Assembly (NCBI GenBank): GCA_031082205.1
Contig: JAVHLJ010000024.1
Span: 1-37,754, forward strand
Source: Elusimicrobiales bacterium
GTDB lineage: Bacteria > Elusimicrobiota > Elusimicrobia > Elusimicrobiales > UBA9959
DNA: 37,754 nucleotides
Reading direction: 5' to 3'
Below, piece after piece: positions 29,465 to 37,590 of the stretch (position 1 is its first letter; each line of letters starts with the position of its first letter). Below the pieces are notes generated by a model. That model saw only the letters and a program-made list of their open reading frames with translations. It did not search any database and was not told the origin of the DNA. A program made the translations under genes and the position numbers.

Positions 29465-30385
29465 TTACTTCCAGCCCTTCTCCAGTATCTTCACGTAGTC
29501 GGCTATCCCGTCGGCCAGGCTCCACTCGGGCCTGTAATTCAGCAGCGCCTTGGCCTGCCGCAGGTCGGCCTGCGTCCTGTTCTGGTAGAAGCCGTACGGG
29601 TTGTCGAAATACTCGGGCGCCAGGTCCGTTCCCATCCCCTTGTTCAGCGCGTCTATGACGGCGTTGAAGTTCTCGGGGCGGCCGGTCGCCGCGTTGCAGA
29701 CGCAGGACCGTTCCGCGTCGAGCGCGTTGAGGTTGGCGCGCACCAGGTCCTTGACGTAGACGAAGTCGCGCGTCTGCTCGCCGTACTTGAAGACGCGCGG
29801 GCGCTTTCCGGCCTTCATCTGCCTGTAGAGCTGGAAGATCATGCTGGCCATCTTGCCCTTGTAGTACTCGCGCGGGCCGTAGACGTTGAAATAGCGCAGG
29901 CCGACCAGCGTCATGTCCTTGTGAACTTCGGCCCACTCGCGGGCGAGGTTGTCCATTATCGCCTTGGAGAAGCCGTATACGTTCTCGGGGGTCGGCGTCT
30001 GAGTCTCCAGCATGGGGCACTCTGAATTGCCGTAGACCGCGGCGGAGGAGGCGTAGACCACGCGCTTCACGCCGTGTTCCAGGGCGTATTCCAGCACGTT
30101 GCGGAAACCGTCCACGTTTACGGCCATCATACGCCGCTGGTCGGTCTCGGTCGTGTCCACTACCGCGGCCTGGTGGAACACCGCGTCAACCTTGCCGACC
30201 CTGCCGAACCAGTCCCGGGAGAGGATGTCGCCGGCTACCACGTCGCCGCCGAAGCCCGAGAGGGTCCTGAAATCTCCGGACGAGAAATCGTCCAGCACCA
30301 CCACCTTCGCCTTGCGCTCCTCCTCGAGGGCGAAGGCGATGTTGGAACCGATGAATCCGGCGCCGCCGGTTACCAGGTATCTCAT
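29465..30385 (-). CDS. NAD(P)-dependent sugar-nucleotide epimerase, HldD-like
   Basis: 306-residue extended short-chain dehydrogenase/reductase. TGGAGFIGS (6-14) binds the cofactor, Tyr137 and Lys141 form the YxxxK catalytic pair with a serine at about 113-114, and RYFNVYGPREYYKGKMASMI closely resembles ADP-L-glycero-D-manno-heptose-6-epimerase (HldD), which makes the lipopolysaccharide core sugar. The C-terminus (YQNRTQADLRQAKALLNYRP) also agrees with HldD-like proteins. A UDP-glucose/GlcNAc epimerase is possible but less likely. The gene lies inside the ATP synthase operon, 10 bases after atpA and 12 before atpG, with its own GAGGA site. Its codon use looks like that of its neighbours. Confidence 0.85.
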   Translation of the reverse strand: MRYLVTGGAGFIGSNIAFALEEERKAKVVVLDDFSSGDFRTLSGFGGDVVAGDILSRDWFGRVGKVDAVFHQAAVVDTTETDQRRMMAVNVDGFRNVLEYALEHGVKRVVYASSAAVYGNSECPMLETQTPTPENVYGFSKAIMDNLAREWAEVHKDMTLVGLRYFNVYGPREYYKGKMASMIFQLYRQMKAGKRPRVFKYGEQTRDFVYVKDLVRANLNALDAERSCVCNAATGRPENFNAVIDALNKGMGTDLAPEYFDNPYGFYQNRTQADLRQAKALLNYRPEWSLADGIADYVKILEKGWK

Positions 30386-33360: not shown

Positions 33361-34128
33361 CTAGTGCGGGTGCATCGCCGCGCCCGTGAATATGGCCGTC
33401 AGGAAGGTGAAGATGTACGCCTGCAGGAAGGCCACGAAGATCTCCAGGAGCGAGACGAAAATGACCAGCACGATCGCGGCCGGCGCCGTCACGCCCACGC
33501 CGAGCCAGGGGTTTATCGCGCCGAAGATGAAGATCATGCCGATGAAGGACAGGATCACTATGTGCCCGGCTATCATGTTGGCGAAAAGACGGATGCAGAG
33601 CGCGAAGGACTTGGTGACCAGGCCCAGCACCTCTATCGGGAAAAGCAGGGGGTAGAGCCAGACGGGCACGCCGGCCGGCACCAGGTGGGCTATGTACTTG
33701 ACCACGCCCTGCTCGCGCATGCCGGCCAGGTTCACCAGCAGGAAGGTGCAGAAGGCGAAGCCGCCGGTGACGGCCAGGTTGCCGGTGGCCGTGGCGCCGA
33801 AAGGCACCATGCCGGCCAGGTTGAGCCCGAGTATGAAGATGAACAGCGTGCAGAAATAGCCGGTGTAGCGGGCGCCCTTCTTCCCCATGTTCTGAACGAC
33901 CACCTCGTCCCGGATGAAAAGGACCAGCGCCTCGAGCATCGAGCGGAACGGGGCCAGCCCCGCCGAGCGGCTGCGGCGCAGGAGCGGCAGGCCGGCTCCG
34001 ATAACAGCGGCGACCAGGACTATCATCAGGAAATGCTTGGTCAGGGGAAGGGACAGCGGGCCCGCCGACAGCGGGGCCGCCAGCGTATGGTCTATTATGT
34101 GGTGCTCTAGGATCTCTTTGACGTCCAT
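33361..34128 (-). CDS. atpB: ATP synthase a subunit
   Basis: 255-residue Fo channel subunit with five to six transmembrane helices. The essential arginine is Arg180 in SFALCIRLFANMIAGH, and GLNLAGMVPFGATATGNLAVT and AYIFTFLTAIFTGAA are typical of the family. It overlaps the preceding atpI-like gene by 22 bases. The gap to atpE (33328-33360) holds a strong GGAGGT ribosome-binding site for the c subunit. Confidence 0.97.
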   Translation of the reverse strand: MDVKEILEHHIIDHTLAAPLSAGPLSLPLTKHFLMIVLVAAVIGAGLPLLRRSRSAGLAPFRSMLEALVLFIRDEVVVQNMGKKGARYTGYFCTLFIFILGLNLAGMVPFGATATGNLAVTGGFAFCTFLLVNLAGMREQGVVKYIAHLVPAGVPVWLYPLLFPIEVLGLVTKSFALCIRLFANMIAGHIVILSFIGMIFIFGAINPWLGVGVTAPAAIVLVIFVSLLEIFVAFLQAYIFTFLTAIFTGAAMHPH

Positions 34129-34406
34129 GGGCCCCTGGGAACGAGAACTACCTCTAGGATCAGCTGCGCGAATATCAGCGCGGCCGCGAAAGCGACTATG
34201 ATTATATATTTTTCATTACGCAGAAGCCATAAAGCGCCCAGCAGGAAGAGCAGGCGGTAGAAGAATCCGGCGACGAAGGCGGCGAAGAACACGGGCTGCG
34301 AGGCCGGCACCGCGCGCCGCATGACCGCCCCGGCCAGCAGGCCGTTGAAGATACCGCAGGCGGCGCCCAGCAGCGCCGCGGAGGCGGCGGTCTCAGGCGG
34401 CGTCAC
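34107..34406 (-). CDS. AtpI-like membrane protein of the atp operon
   Basis: 99-residue protein with three to four hydrophobic segments (SAALLGAACGIFNGLLAGAVM, PVFFAAFVAGFFYRLLFLLGALWLL and YIIIVAFAAALIFAQLILEVVLV). It has the position and composition of the AtpI/AtpR small subunits encoded just before atpB, which in other bacteria help assemble the c-ring or bind Mg. Its GTG start (34406) overlaps the previous gene by 14 bases and follows GGAGGG. Sequence similarity is weak, so the call rests on context. Confidence 0.7.
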   Translation of the reverse strand: MTPPETAASAALLGAACGIFNGLLAGAVMRRAVPASQPVFFAAFVAGFFYRLLFLLGALWLLRNEKYIIIVAFAAALIFAQLILEVVLVPRGPWTSKRS

Positions 34407-34638
34407 CGGGCCCTCCCTTGCGCCGCTCCTCTTCCTCCCGGCTTACCGCGGCCACCTCCCGGAAGAACAGGTAGAAGCCCGCGGCCAGGCCGGCGGCGGC
34501 GCCCGCCGCGGCCAGCCAGTGTCCCGTGCCCAGCCGCCGGTCGGCCAGCAGGCCCAGCCAGAAACCGAGCCCTACCCCGGCCGCCAGCTGCAGCCCGGAC
34601 TGAAGCAGCCCGTAATATCCCCTTCCTTCCTTCTTCAC
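34393..34638 (-). CDS. AtpZ-like protein, first gene of the atp operon
   Basis: 81-residue protein with two predicted transmembrane helices (QLAAGVGLGFWLGLLADRRLG and GHWLAAAGAAAGLAAGFYLFF) and a charged C-terminal tail. This is the AtpZ/ATPase_gene1 pattern: GLQLAAGVGLGFWLGLLAD and AAGLAAGFYLFFREV agree with the family. AtpZ and AtpI help assemble or regulate the ATP synthase in other bacteria. The start is GTG at 34638, with an AGGA directly before it and a TAGAAT -10 six bases upstream. It has the normal position of the first atp gene. Confidence 0.75.
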   Translation of the reverse strand: MKKEGRGYYGLLQSGLQLAAGVGLGFWLGLLADRRLGTGHWLAAAGAAAGLAAGFYLFFREVAAVSREEEERRKGGPGDAA

Positions 34639-34644
34639 TCCTGT

Positions 34645-34653
34645 ATTCTAACA
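34645..34653 (-). promoter_or_regulatory. Extended -10 of the ATP synthase operon
   Basis: On the minus strand TGT then TAGAAT (34645-34650) form an extended -10 element that ends six bases before the GTG start of the atpZ-like gene. The transcript would be leaderless or nearly so. It stands back to back with the promoter of the GGDEF gene. Confidence 0.55.
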
Positions 34654-34655
34654 AA

Positions 34656-34664
34656 TGCTAAAAT
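34656..34664 (+). promoter_or_regulatory. Extended -10 of the GGDEF gene
   Basis: TGC then TAAAAT (34659-34664) form an extended -10 element ending seven bases before the ATG at 34672. AGGG between them could be a weak ribosome-binding site, but it lies only two bases before the ATG. Confidence 0.55.
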
Positions 34665-34671
34665 TAGGGCG

Positions 34672-36393
34672 ATGGGAAAAGGCCCGAAAAAGATACTCTT
34701 CATCGACCCGCCGCCCGGCTCCGAAAGCGGGATAATGCCGCTGCTCGCGGAGCGCGGCTGGGAGGTGCGGCGCTCCGGGAATTACCAGGAGGCGATGACC
34801 TCTCTGCAGAACTGGAAGCCGGACCTGGCCGTCCTCAATATCCTCACCGAGGCCTTCAACCCGCTCGACCTCCTTAAAGAGGTGCGCGAGAACCCCTTCA
34901 CCCAGAACCAGCGGATCGTCGTATTCTCCCATTCGCCCAAGATAGAGGTGGTCACCGGCCCCTCCCCCCGCGTGAGCGGCTACCTTAACAAACCCATAGA
35001 TTTCGAGGCCCTCAAAGGCCTCCTGCTCAAGACGGCGGAGAAGCCCGCCCCCGGCAGGCCCGTTACGGTGCTGGTCGCCGACGACGACGAGGAGTTCTCC
35101 GACCTGGTCAAGATGTTCCTGGAGGCCAATTACTACCGCCCCGTGGTCGTGAACGACCCGCTGAAGGTGGTGGAGACGGCGAGGACGGAAAAGCCGGAGG
35201 CCATGCTGCTCGACATCATGATGCCCGGCAAGGACGGCTTCCGCATAATGGAGGAACTGCAGGACGAGGCCGCCACGGCCTATATCCCCGTCATAGTCCT
35301 GAGCGCGCTGCGGCTGGACAATTTCCAGGAGAGGGGCATACTGACCGGCCTGCCCGAGATAGTCTCCAAGGACATGCCAAAAGAGCTGCTCATCAAGCTG
35401 ATAGAGGCGCAGCTGGGCGGGACGGAGGCGGGCGGGGAGGCGGAGGCGGCCGCGCCGCGTTCCGACAGGCCGCGCGTACTCTTCGCCGACGACCAGACCG
35501 AACTGCTCTACCTGATGAAGGAAATGCTGGAGCAGGCCGGCTTCGAGGTCATAACGGCCGAGAACGGCGGGGAGGCGATGAAGGCGGTCTTCGAGAATAC
35601 CCCCGACATAGCCGTGCTCGACTACAACATGCCGGTCAAGGACGGCCTGGCGGTGGCCGAAGCGCTCAAGGAAAACCCGCTTTTCGCCCACATCCCGATA
35701 ATAATCTGCACCGCCTTCGGCGAGAAGAGCACCAAGCTGCGCGGCTTGAGCATGGGCATAGACGACTACCTGATAAAGCCGGTGGACGCCGACGAACTGA
35801 TAGCCCGCATCCGCATGATACTCAAGCGCAACAAGCAGGTGCTCGATACCAACCCCCTCTCCAAGCTGCCCGGAAACCCGTCGATACAGGCCCGGGTCGA
35901 GCGCGAGATACAGAAGGGCTCCGATTTCGCCGTGCTTTACATCGACCTCGACAACTTCAAGGCCTTCAACGACTCCTACGGCTTCGAGGCCGGCGACCGG
36001 GTCATAAAGACCACGGCCAACCTCCTTGTAAAGCTGACCATACAGAACGAGAACTCCGAGGATTTTATCGGCCATATCGGAGGCGACGACTTCATAGTCG
36101 TCACCACCTTCGACAAGGCGGAGCCCCTGGCTAAAAGCGTCATAGCGGCCTTCAACGAGATAGCGCCGTCATTCTACAGCAGGGAAGACCGGGAGCGCGG
36201 CTGCATAGTCTCCACCGACCGCCAGGGGAACATAAAGAAGTTCCCGTTCATCACCATCTCCATAGGCGTTGTGCACAACCGCCTGCGGCCGCTGAACTCT
36301 TTCGCCCAGGTCAGCAATATAGGGACGGAACTCAAGAAGTTCGCCAAGGCCGGCTCGGGCGGCAACTACACCATAGACCGCCGCAAGGACTAG
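34672..36393 (+). CDS. Triple receiver-domain GGDEF protein (putative diguanylate cyclase)
   Basis: 573-residue cytoplasmic signalling protein. Receiver 1 (about 7-120) lacks the phospho-acceptor: Asn56 stands where Asp is expected (LAVLNIL) and its acidic pocket is poor, so it is a pseudo-receiver. Receiver 2 (about 131-248) has DDD (137-139), Asp181 and Lys233. Receiver 3 (about 267-385) has DD (273-274), Asp317 and Lys369. The GGDEF domain (about 400-570) has YIDLDNFKAFNDSYG and the active-site variant GGDDF (470-474), compatible with c-di-GMP synthesis. No RxxD inhibitory site is seen before it. It diverges from the ATP synthase operon across only 33 bases. The start at 34672 is preferred over longer open frames because the promoter lies just before it. 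Confidence 0.9.
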   Translation: MGKGPKKILFIDPPPGSESGIMPLLAERGWEVRRSGNYQEAMTSLQNWKPDLAVLNILTEAFNPLDLLKEVRENPFTQNQRIVVFSHSPKIEVVTGPSPRVSGYLNKPIDFEALKGLLLKTAEKPAPGRPVTVLVADDDEEFSDLVKMFLEANYYRPVVVNDPLKVVETARTEKPEAMLLDIMMPGKDGFRIMEELQDEAATAYIPVIVLSALRLDNFQERGILTGLPEIVSKDMPKELLIKLIEAQLGGTEAGGEAEAAAPRSDRPRVLFADDQTELLYLMKEMLEQAGFEVITAENGGEAMKAVFENTPDIAVLDYNMPVKDGLAVAEALKENPLFAHIPIIICTAFGEKSTKLRGLSMGIDDYLIKPVDADELIARIRMILKRNKQVLDTNPLSKLPGNPSIQARVEREIQKGSDFAVLYIDLDNFKAFNDSYGFEAGDRVIKTTANLLVKLTIQNENSEDFIGHIGGDDFIVVTTFDKAEPLAKSVIAAFNEIAPSFYSREDRERGCIVSTDRQGNIKKFPFITISIGVVHNRLRPLNSFAQVSNIGTELKKFAKAGSGGNYTIDRRKD

Positions 36394-36459: not shown

Positions 36460-37590
36460 TCAGATGAAAGTCGGCTCGGGGATATCGTCCTCGTCCGGAT
36501 AATAGACGGCGGGAACTACGCCGCCGCGGCCGTCGGGGTTGTATATGGCGGGAACCACGCCCGAATCCCGCAGGCTGGGAGCCCGCGTGGGGATATCCCG
36601 TTCCTTCGCCTCGTCGATAGCGCGCTCGAAATCGGTGACCGGCAGTAAATTCTTCAGCCGGCCGATCAGCGTGACGTCCTCGCCGCGGCCCTCGTCCTGG
36701 CCCACGACGTGCGCGGCGCCCGGAGCGTAGCCGCCCGGCCGGCGCGGGTCATAGTAGGTGACGCCGTCCGACTCGGTGTGGATATAATCGGTGCCGCCGC
36801 GGGTCAGCACGCCCTCGATGAGCATGGTGTCGGCGTTGAAGACCGGGCTGCCGGAGTTGCCGGCGAAGGTGTCCAGGTCGGTCACGAAAAATCCCCTGTC
36901 CGCGTGGACGCGGCGCACGCTGGCGCTGCCGGCGACCTTGACCGGCATGCCGCTGGGATAGCCGATGGCGAAAAGCCTGGCCCCGGCCGCCGGCGCCGCG
37001 CCGCGGTTTATGGCCAGCGGGAAGCGTTCCGCGGGCACCTTGCGGTCCAGCCGGACCACCGCGTAATCCGCGCCGTTCCTGTCATAGTGGCTGGCCACCA
37101 CCTCCTTGCACCCGAAAACGTTCTCCGCCGGCACCTCGGAGGGGAAGGCGCCGGCCCTGGTCACCGCGTAGCCGAAGACGAAGGAGGTCTGGGCGCAGGT
37201 GATGCCCTCCTCGAAGCAGTGCTGGGCGGTGACCACCAGGTCCTCGCCGGCCAGGAAAGAGGAGCAGAAAGAGCCGAAAGGCTGGTCGCCGTAGCGCTCT
37301 TCCTCCCGCAGGTTGAACTTGTCGCGGATGGTGCGGCCGGAACCGATCGAGGCGGTGCCGCGGGAGGCGTCCAGGACCACGTCACGGCTGCGGAACAGGG
37401 CGGCGGTGGAATCGGCCAGGTGCTGATAAACCCGGTCGGCCTCGTAGTAGTCCGCGCGGTCGTCCGAACCGTAGATGGCTATCGGCACTATATTGGCGCC
37501 GTAACCGGTCCGGCGCTCGGCCAGGAGGGCGCCGGGGAAAAGGAGCACCGAGGCCGCGAAAGCCGTTTTCATGGTCATCCTTGCGTTCAT
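36460..37590 (-). CDS. Secreted trypsin-like serine protease
   Basis: 376-residue exported protein with a signal peptide (about residues 1-24, ending in ALLA). The chymotrypsin-fold triad is readable: His124 in VVTAQHC, Asp175 in GADYAVVRL and Ser246 in GNSGSPVF. Cysteines at 109 and 125 flank the histidine as in the classical 42-58 disulphide, and two more (132, 161) may form another. A region of about 80 residues precedes the protease domain. After it comes a tail of about 100 residues, ending in two copies of GVVPA(I/V)Y(N/Y)PD and an acidic end. GNSGSP is closer to V8/glutamyl-endopeptidase-like enzymes than to trypsin itself. A GAGGAGG site precedes the chosen ATG. Confidence 0.87.
   Translation of the reverse strand: MNARMTMKTAFAASVLLFPGALLAERRTGYGANIVPIAIYGSDDRADYYEADRVYQHLADSTAALFRSRDVVLDASRGTASIGSGRTIRDKFNLREEERYGDQPFGSFCSSFLAGEDLVVTAQHCFEEGITCAQTSFVFGYAVTRAGAFPSEVPAENVFGCKEVVASHYDRNGADYAVVRLDRKVPAERFPLAINRGAAPAAGARLFAIGYPSGMPVKVAGSASVRRVHADRGFFVTDLDTFAGNSGSPVFNADTMLIEGVLTRGGTDYIHTESDGVTYYDPRRPGGYAPGAAHVVGQDEGRGEDVTLIGRLKNLLPVTDFERAIDEAKERDIPTRAPSLRDSGVVPAIYNPDGRGGVVPAVYYPDEDDIPEPTFI

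Follow-up and report, generated by a model that had tools for sequence, protein, structure and literature searches.

Leaderless expression from a −10 element placed at the open reading frame is established in Actinobacteria, Deinococcus-Thermus and other groups (PMC3160421, PMC12340547). In these TA-led promoters, a TAnnnT element lies a few nucleotides before the start codon, leaving little or no leader, often without a −35 element, and the arrangement is common genome-wide. Neither Elusimicrobiota nor Elusimicrobia is named in the main texts of the two papers. Another relevant system is the bidirectional promoter of Escherichia coli (Warman et al., PMC12825309), built around a shared or overlapping pseudo-symmetric −10 and found in some cases between divergent genes. 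Its starts, for which 10, 18 and 23 bp are common distances, are too close for two polymerases to be held at once. In all five such promoters tested, basal activity was too low for competition, and the opposite RNA was repressed once one direction was substantially activated (PMC12825309).

The stretch of DNA analysed here (the window; 37,754 nt of contig JAVHLJ010000024.1 from an Elusimicrobiales genome, assembly GCA_031082205.1) contains an atp operon and a GGDEF gene in divergent orientation, separated by 33 bp. The features concerned are the following.

33361..34128, minus strand: atpB, ATP synthase subunit a (PF00119, E = 1.8e-55)
34107..34406, minus strand: second atp gene, encoding a small membrane protein (AtpI-like; weak match, below the cut-off, to the Cg1360 ATP-synthase-associated family)
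34393..34638, minus strand: atpZ-like first gene of the operon (profile match to Pfam ATPase_gene1, PF09527), GTG start, predicted to be leaderless; N-terminus supported by orthologues
34639..34671, no strand: intergenic region with both putative promoters (direct sequence read, open reading frames and shuffle frequency)
34645..34653, minus strand: putative extended −10 of the atp operon, TGT-TAGAAT (core 34645–34650, TG 34652–34653), ending 6 nt before the GTG
34656..34664, plus strand: putative extended −10 of the GGDEF gene, TGC-TAAAAT (core 34659–34664, TG 34656–34657), ending 7 nt before the ATG
34672..36393, plus strand: three-receiver GGDEF protein of 573 aa (Response_reg in three stretches; GGDEF, 4e-16), predicted to be leaderless

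Read directly, the 33 bp are TCCTGTATTCTAACAAATGCTAAAATTAGGGCG, bounded by the GTG of the atpZ-like gene at 34638 (minus strand) and the ATG of the GGDEF frame at 34672 (plus strand). The minus strand reads TGT-TAGAAT-ACAGGA-GTG into the atpZ-like gene, and the plus strand reads TGC-TAAAAT-TAGGGCG-ATG into the GGDEF gene; the two TG motifs are separated by two bases (34654–34655). A preliminary description of this DNA, which reported two outward-facing extended −10 elements with two bases between their TGs, is exact in coordinates and motifs. It did not mention how close each element is to its start codon: at 6 and 7 nt, both are at the distance expected of leaderless promoters. No −35 element accompanies either promoter, and a scan requiring one finds no promoter in the gap. 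Two other start codons were considered and rejected: a minus-strand TTG at 34654, which is in a different frame from atpZ, and an upstream-extended GGDEF frame (ATG at 34321, 690 aa), whose orthologues begin at the ATG adjoining the −10.

With −10 cores that end 6 and 7 nt short of the start codons, neither mRNA should have a leader. The usual distance from −10 to +1 is 6–7 nt, which would put the transcription starts on the first base of the GTG or ATG or immediately beside it, at predicted positions 34638 and 34671/34672, and leaderless translation of both mRNAs would be expected. The locus shares with TA-led promoters a −10-like hexamer ∼6–8 nt before the start codon (6 nt for atpZ, 7 nt for the GGDEF gene) and a genome-wide enrichment at that distance; it differs in that the Elusimicrobiota motif is often extended (TGnTAnAAT) and in that the start sites here are predicted. 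With the E. coli bidirectional promoters it would have in common divergent starts too close for two polymerases, as its geometry leads one to expect, but the −10 cores are separate, 8 bp apart, and the predicted starts are ∼33 bp apart, not ∼10–23 bp. By the definition of PMC12825309, the gap is a pair of separate divergent promoters.

The missing −35 elements could suggest that the two hexamers are chance words in AT-rich DNA and that the true promoters lie elsewhere, for example within the flanking genes. This is very improbable. When the 33 bp are shuffled by mononucleotide, TAnAAT appears at 6–7 nt from both ends with a frequency of 2.75e-5, which indicates that the paired −10s are not due to chance, and both their spacing and their sequence are fixed across genera. 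The same arrangement also has a position peak genome-wide. In the genome from which the window comes, TGnTAnAAT-N6/7-ATG is present at 27 sites, against one for a reversed-pattern control. Other spacings give 2 sites at 4–5 nt and 17 at 8–9 nt, and it is this profile (2, 27 and 17) that defines the peak. Each of the 27 ATGs opens a frame of at least 133 codons; among random ATGs, 44% open at least 80 codons. Over 41 genomes, the counts, summed by hand from a table, reach 1688 against 267 for the control. A test of −10 position based on gene calling in a 400-kb sample gave only a weak peak, because the choice of start is ambiguous, and whole-genome pattern counts were used in its place.

Conservation in relatives bears on each promoter and on the distance between them. 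Fifteen genomes of the family together have 16 loci at which an orthologue of the GGDEF gene and the atp operon point away from each other. A TGn-extended −10-like hexamer lies 6–7 nt before the GGDEF ATG at all 16, and a −10-like hexamer lies 6–7 nt before the GTG or ATG of atpZ at 13, with none found at that distance in G004, G005 and G022. Both elements also occur outside the linked loci. The atpZ −10 is present in G007, G015 and G016, where adjacency to the GGDEF gene is not seen, and the GGDEF −10 at copies not found beside atpZ in G012, G013, G015, G016, G021 and G023. For G007 and G016, the missing linkage may only reflect contig breaks; linkage is likewise not seen in the family members G012, G013, G015, G021 and G023, nor in the examined genomes of family f2. 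The distance between start codons at the 16 linked loci ranges widely (33, 33, 37, 39, 41, 53, 74, 96, 99, 125, 140, 146, 229, 384, 435 and 2563 bp). Within the genus, where both −10s are retained, it is 33, 33, 41 and 96 bp. In the genus alignment, the 33- and 41-bp spacers differ by 8 bp adjoining AAATG repeats, which would fit slippage or deletion, and the 96-bp spacer, that of G001, carries a longer insert. Thus, of the conservation proposed as a check in the preliminary description, that of each promoter is borne out and that of the tight spacing is not. Its identification of the elements as promoters of the two genes is very probably right, as some dozen genera retain the motif and its distance from the start codon, whereas the DNA separating the promoters differs in both length and content.

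Two of these loci merit separate description. G024 has two divergent atp–GGDEF pairs on different contigs (L074 and L075), with leaderless −10s at both and spacings of 39 and 74 bp. In G005 (L064, G005:C31:23800-27300), ∼2.5 kb separate atpZ from the GGDEF gene, whose −10 is kept; an open reading frame in that stretch resembles, by eye, a group II intron reverse transcriptase.

The preliminary description also raised the idea of an either/or choice between ATP synthase expression and c-di-GMP signalling, polymerase bound at one −10 excluding the other so that the two genes are reciprocally set. The local geometry lends itself to the idea: with predicted starts ∼33 bp apart, the upstream part of each promoter covers the −10 and start of the other, and simultaneous binding of two RNA polymerases is plausibly precluded in this genome. 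In E. coli, one direction can be repressed when the opposite one is activated (PMC12825309), and occlusion could matter in part of the family, as seven linked loci out of 16, in 6 of 15 genomes, have gaps of at most 74 bp, at which footprints would still overlap. Occlusion in this genome is therefore possible. Against a switch, basal competition is negligible in E. coli (PMC12825309), and mutual repression at basal activity is probably weak or absent here. Moreover, there is little space within 33 bp for an activator to bind; taken with the low basal competition in E. coli, this makes a switch possible but not indicated. Mutual exclusion of polymerases would also be expected to keep the distance. 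Yet the spacing varies even within the genus and exceeds 95 bp at 9 of the 16 linked loci, the overlapping geometry is not kept in relatives, and the promoters persist where the two genes are not found together. A conserved switch between ATP synthase and c-di-GMP is thus unlikely, the either/or choice is not supported, and the proposed steric switch is improbable. Searching the literature for control of atp operons by c-di-GMP returned nothing relevant.

Divergent adjacency might instead place both genes under one shared local input, such as supercoiling, a nucleoid protein or a common activator, so that they rise and fall together. The divergent order at the 16 loci, including both copies in G024, speaks for such co-regulation, and adjacency kept in many genera may be a sign that a link between the two genes is under selection. 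However, in the genus alignment the two −10s and their edges are the only parts of the spacer that are shared, and linkage is not seen in the family members named above or in the f2 genomes. Joint control is therefore unlikely, though less so than the switch. Nor is the arrangement special to this gene pair. Back-to-back −10 pairs at leaderless distance, with 0–30 bp between cores, recur in 35 of the 41 genomes (142 strand-hits against 22 for the control, summed by hand, many pairs being counted on both strands). The genome of the window has three; one of them (C55) is rich in AT and perhaps not a genuine pair. A broader proposal, that −35-less leaderless extended −10s are common in Elusimicrobiota and that back-to-back occlusion couples the energy operon to the signalling regulator whenever either is activated, is as a whole improbable, about as much so as the switch.

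The genes on either side have features of their own. The plus-strand gene encodes receiver domains followed by a GGDEF domain, as in PleD-type regulators, but it has three receivers, the first with N in place of the phospho-acceptor D (VLNIL), a GGDDF in place of GG(D/E)EF, and a score below the NCBI cut-off for PleD (211 versus 474 bits). GGDDF is the active-site motif in 19 of 19 aligned orthologues and departs from the active diguanylate cyclase motif [GAS]G[DE]E[FY]; in the orthologue alignment, an RxxD inhibitory site was not seen before it. The roles of these residues (phospho-acceptor D, RxxD site) are presumed from what is generally known of PleD. Degenerate GGDEF motifs are typically inactive. 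One GGDDF enzyme, GSU1937, has nevertheless been shown to be active (PMC8835794), so that activity of the three-receiver protein is conceivable. Of its earlier placement in c-di-GMP signalling, the three receivers and the GGDEF domain stand; c-di-GMP output, given the invariant GGDDF, is uncertain. In related receiver–GGDEF proteins from Omnitrophota, Clostridia, Chloroflexota and others (80 loci, L101–L180), GGDDF accounts for 71 of 73 GGDDF/GGDDY-type sites and canonical GGDEF is unmatched. These GGDDF proteins look like a widespread subgroup whose enzymatic activity is worth testing. Convergent with the GGDEF gene lies a candidate secreted trypsin-like protease (36460–37590, minus strand), with a GNSGSP motif seen by eye and no NCBIfam match.

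In the atp operon, a sugar epimerase gene (29465–30385, minus strand) lies between atpA and atpG. Its product scores above the NCBI cut-off for ADP-glyceromanno-heptose 6-epimerase (309 versus 274.6 bits), and the order atpA–epimerase–atpG is found in all six relatives checked (G001, G002, G006, G011, G017 and G022).

Collectively, the comparison favours, with a probability of about 80%, two leaderless promoters that lack a −35, act independently and are close together by chance, over a conserved switch. Each would be an extended −10 located 6–7 nt before its start codon, with RNA polymerase starting on the codon's first base or immediately beside it; one would drive the atp operon, headed by atpZ, and the other the REC-REC-REC-GGDEF gene. 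That they are so close in this genome would follow from the minimal leader that such promoters require, combined with changes in spacer length, and any steric clash of two polymerases would be a matter of local geometry. The biology is thus ordinary for a poorly studied phylum, this promoter type being already known in other phyla, and, set against its relatives, a tight divergent pair that resembles a switch in a single genome makes better sense as two leaderless promoters acting independently. Elusimicrobiota are for the most part uncultured, and for them TGnTAnAAT ∼6–8 nt before the start codon offers a simple, testable promoter signature, which should aid the correction of start-codon and operon annotation.
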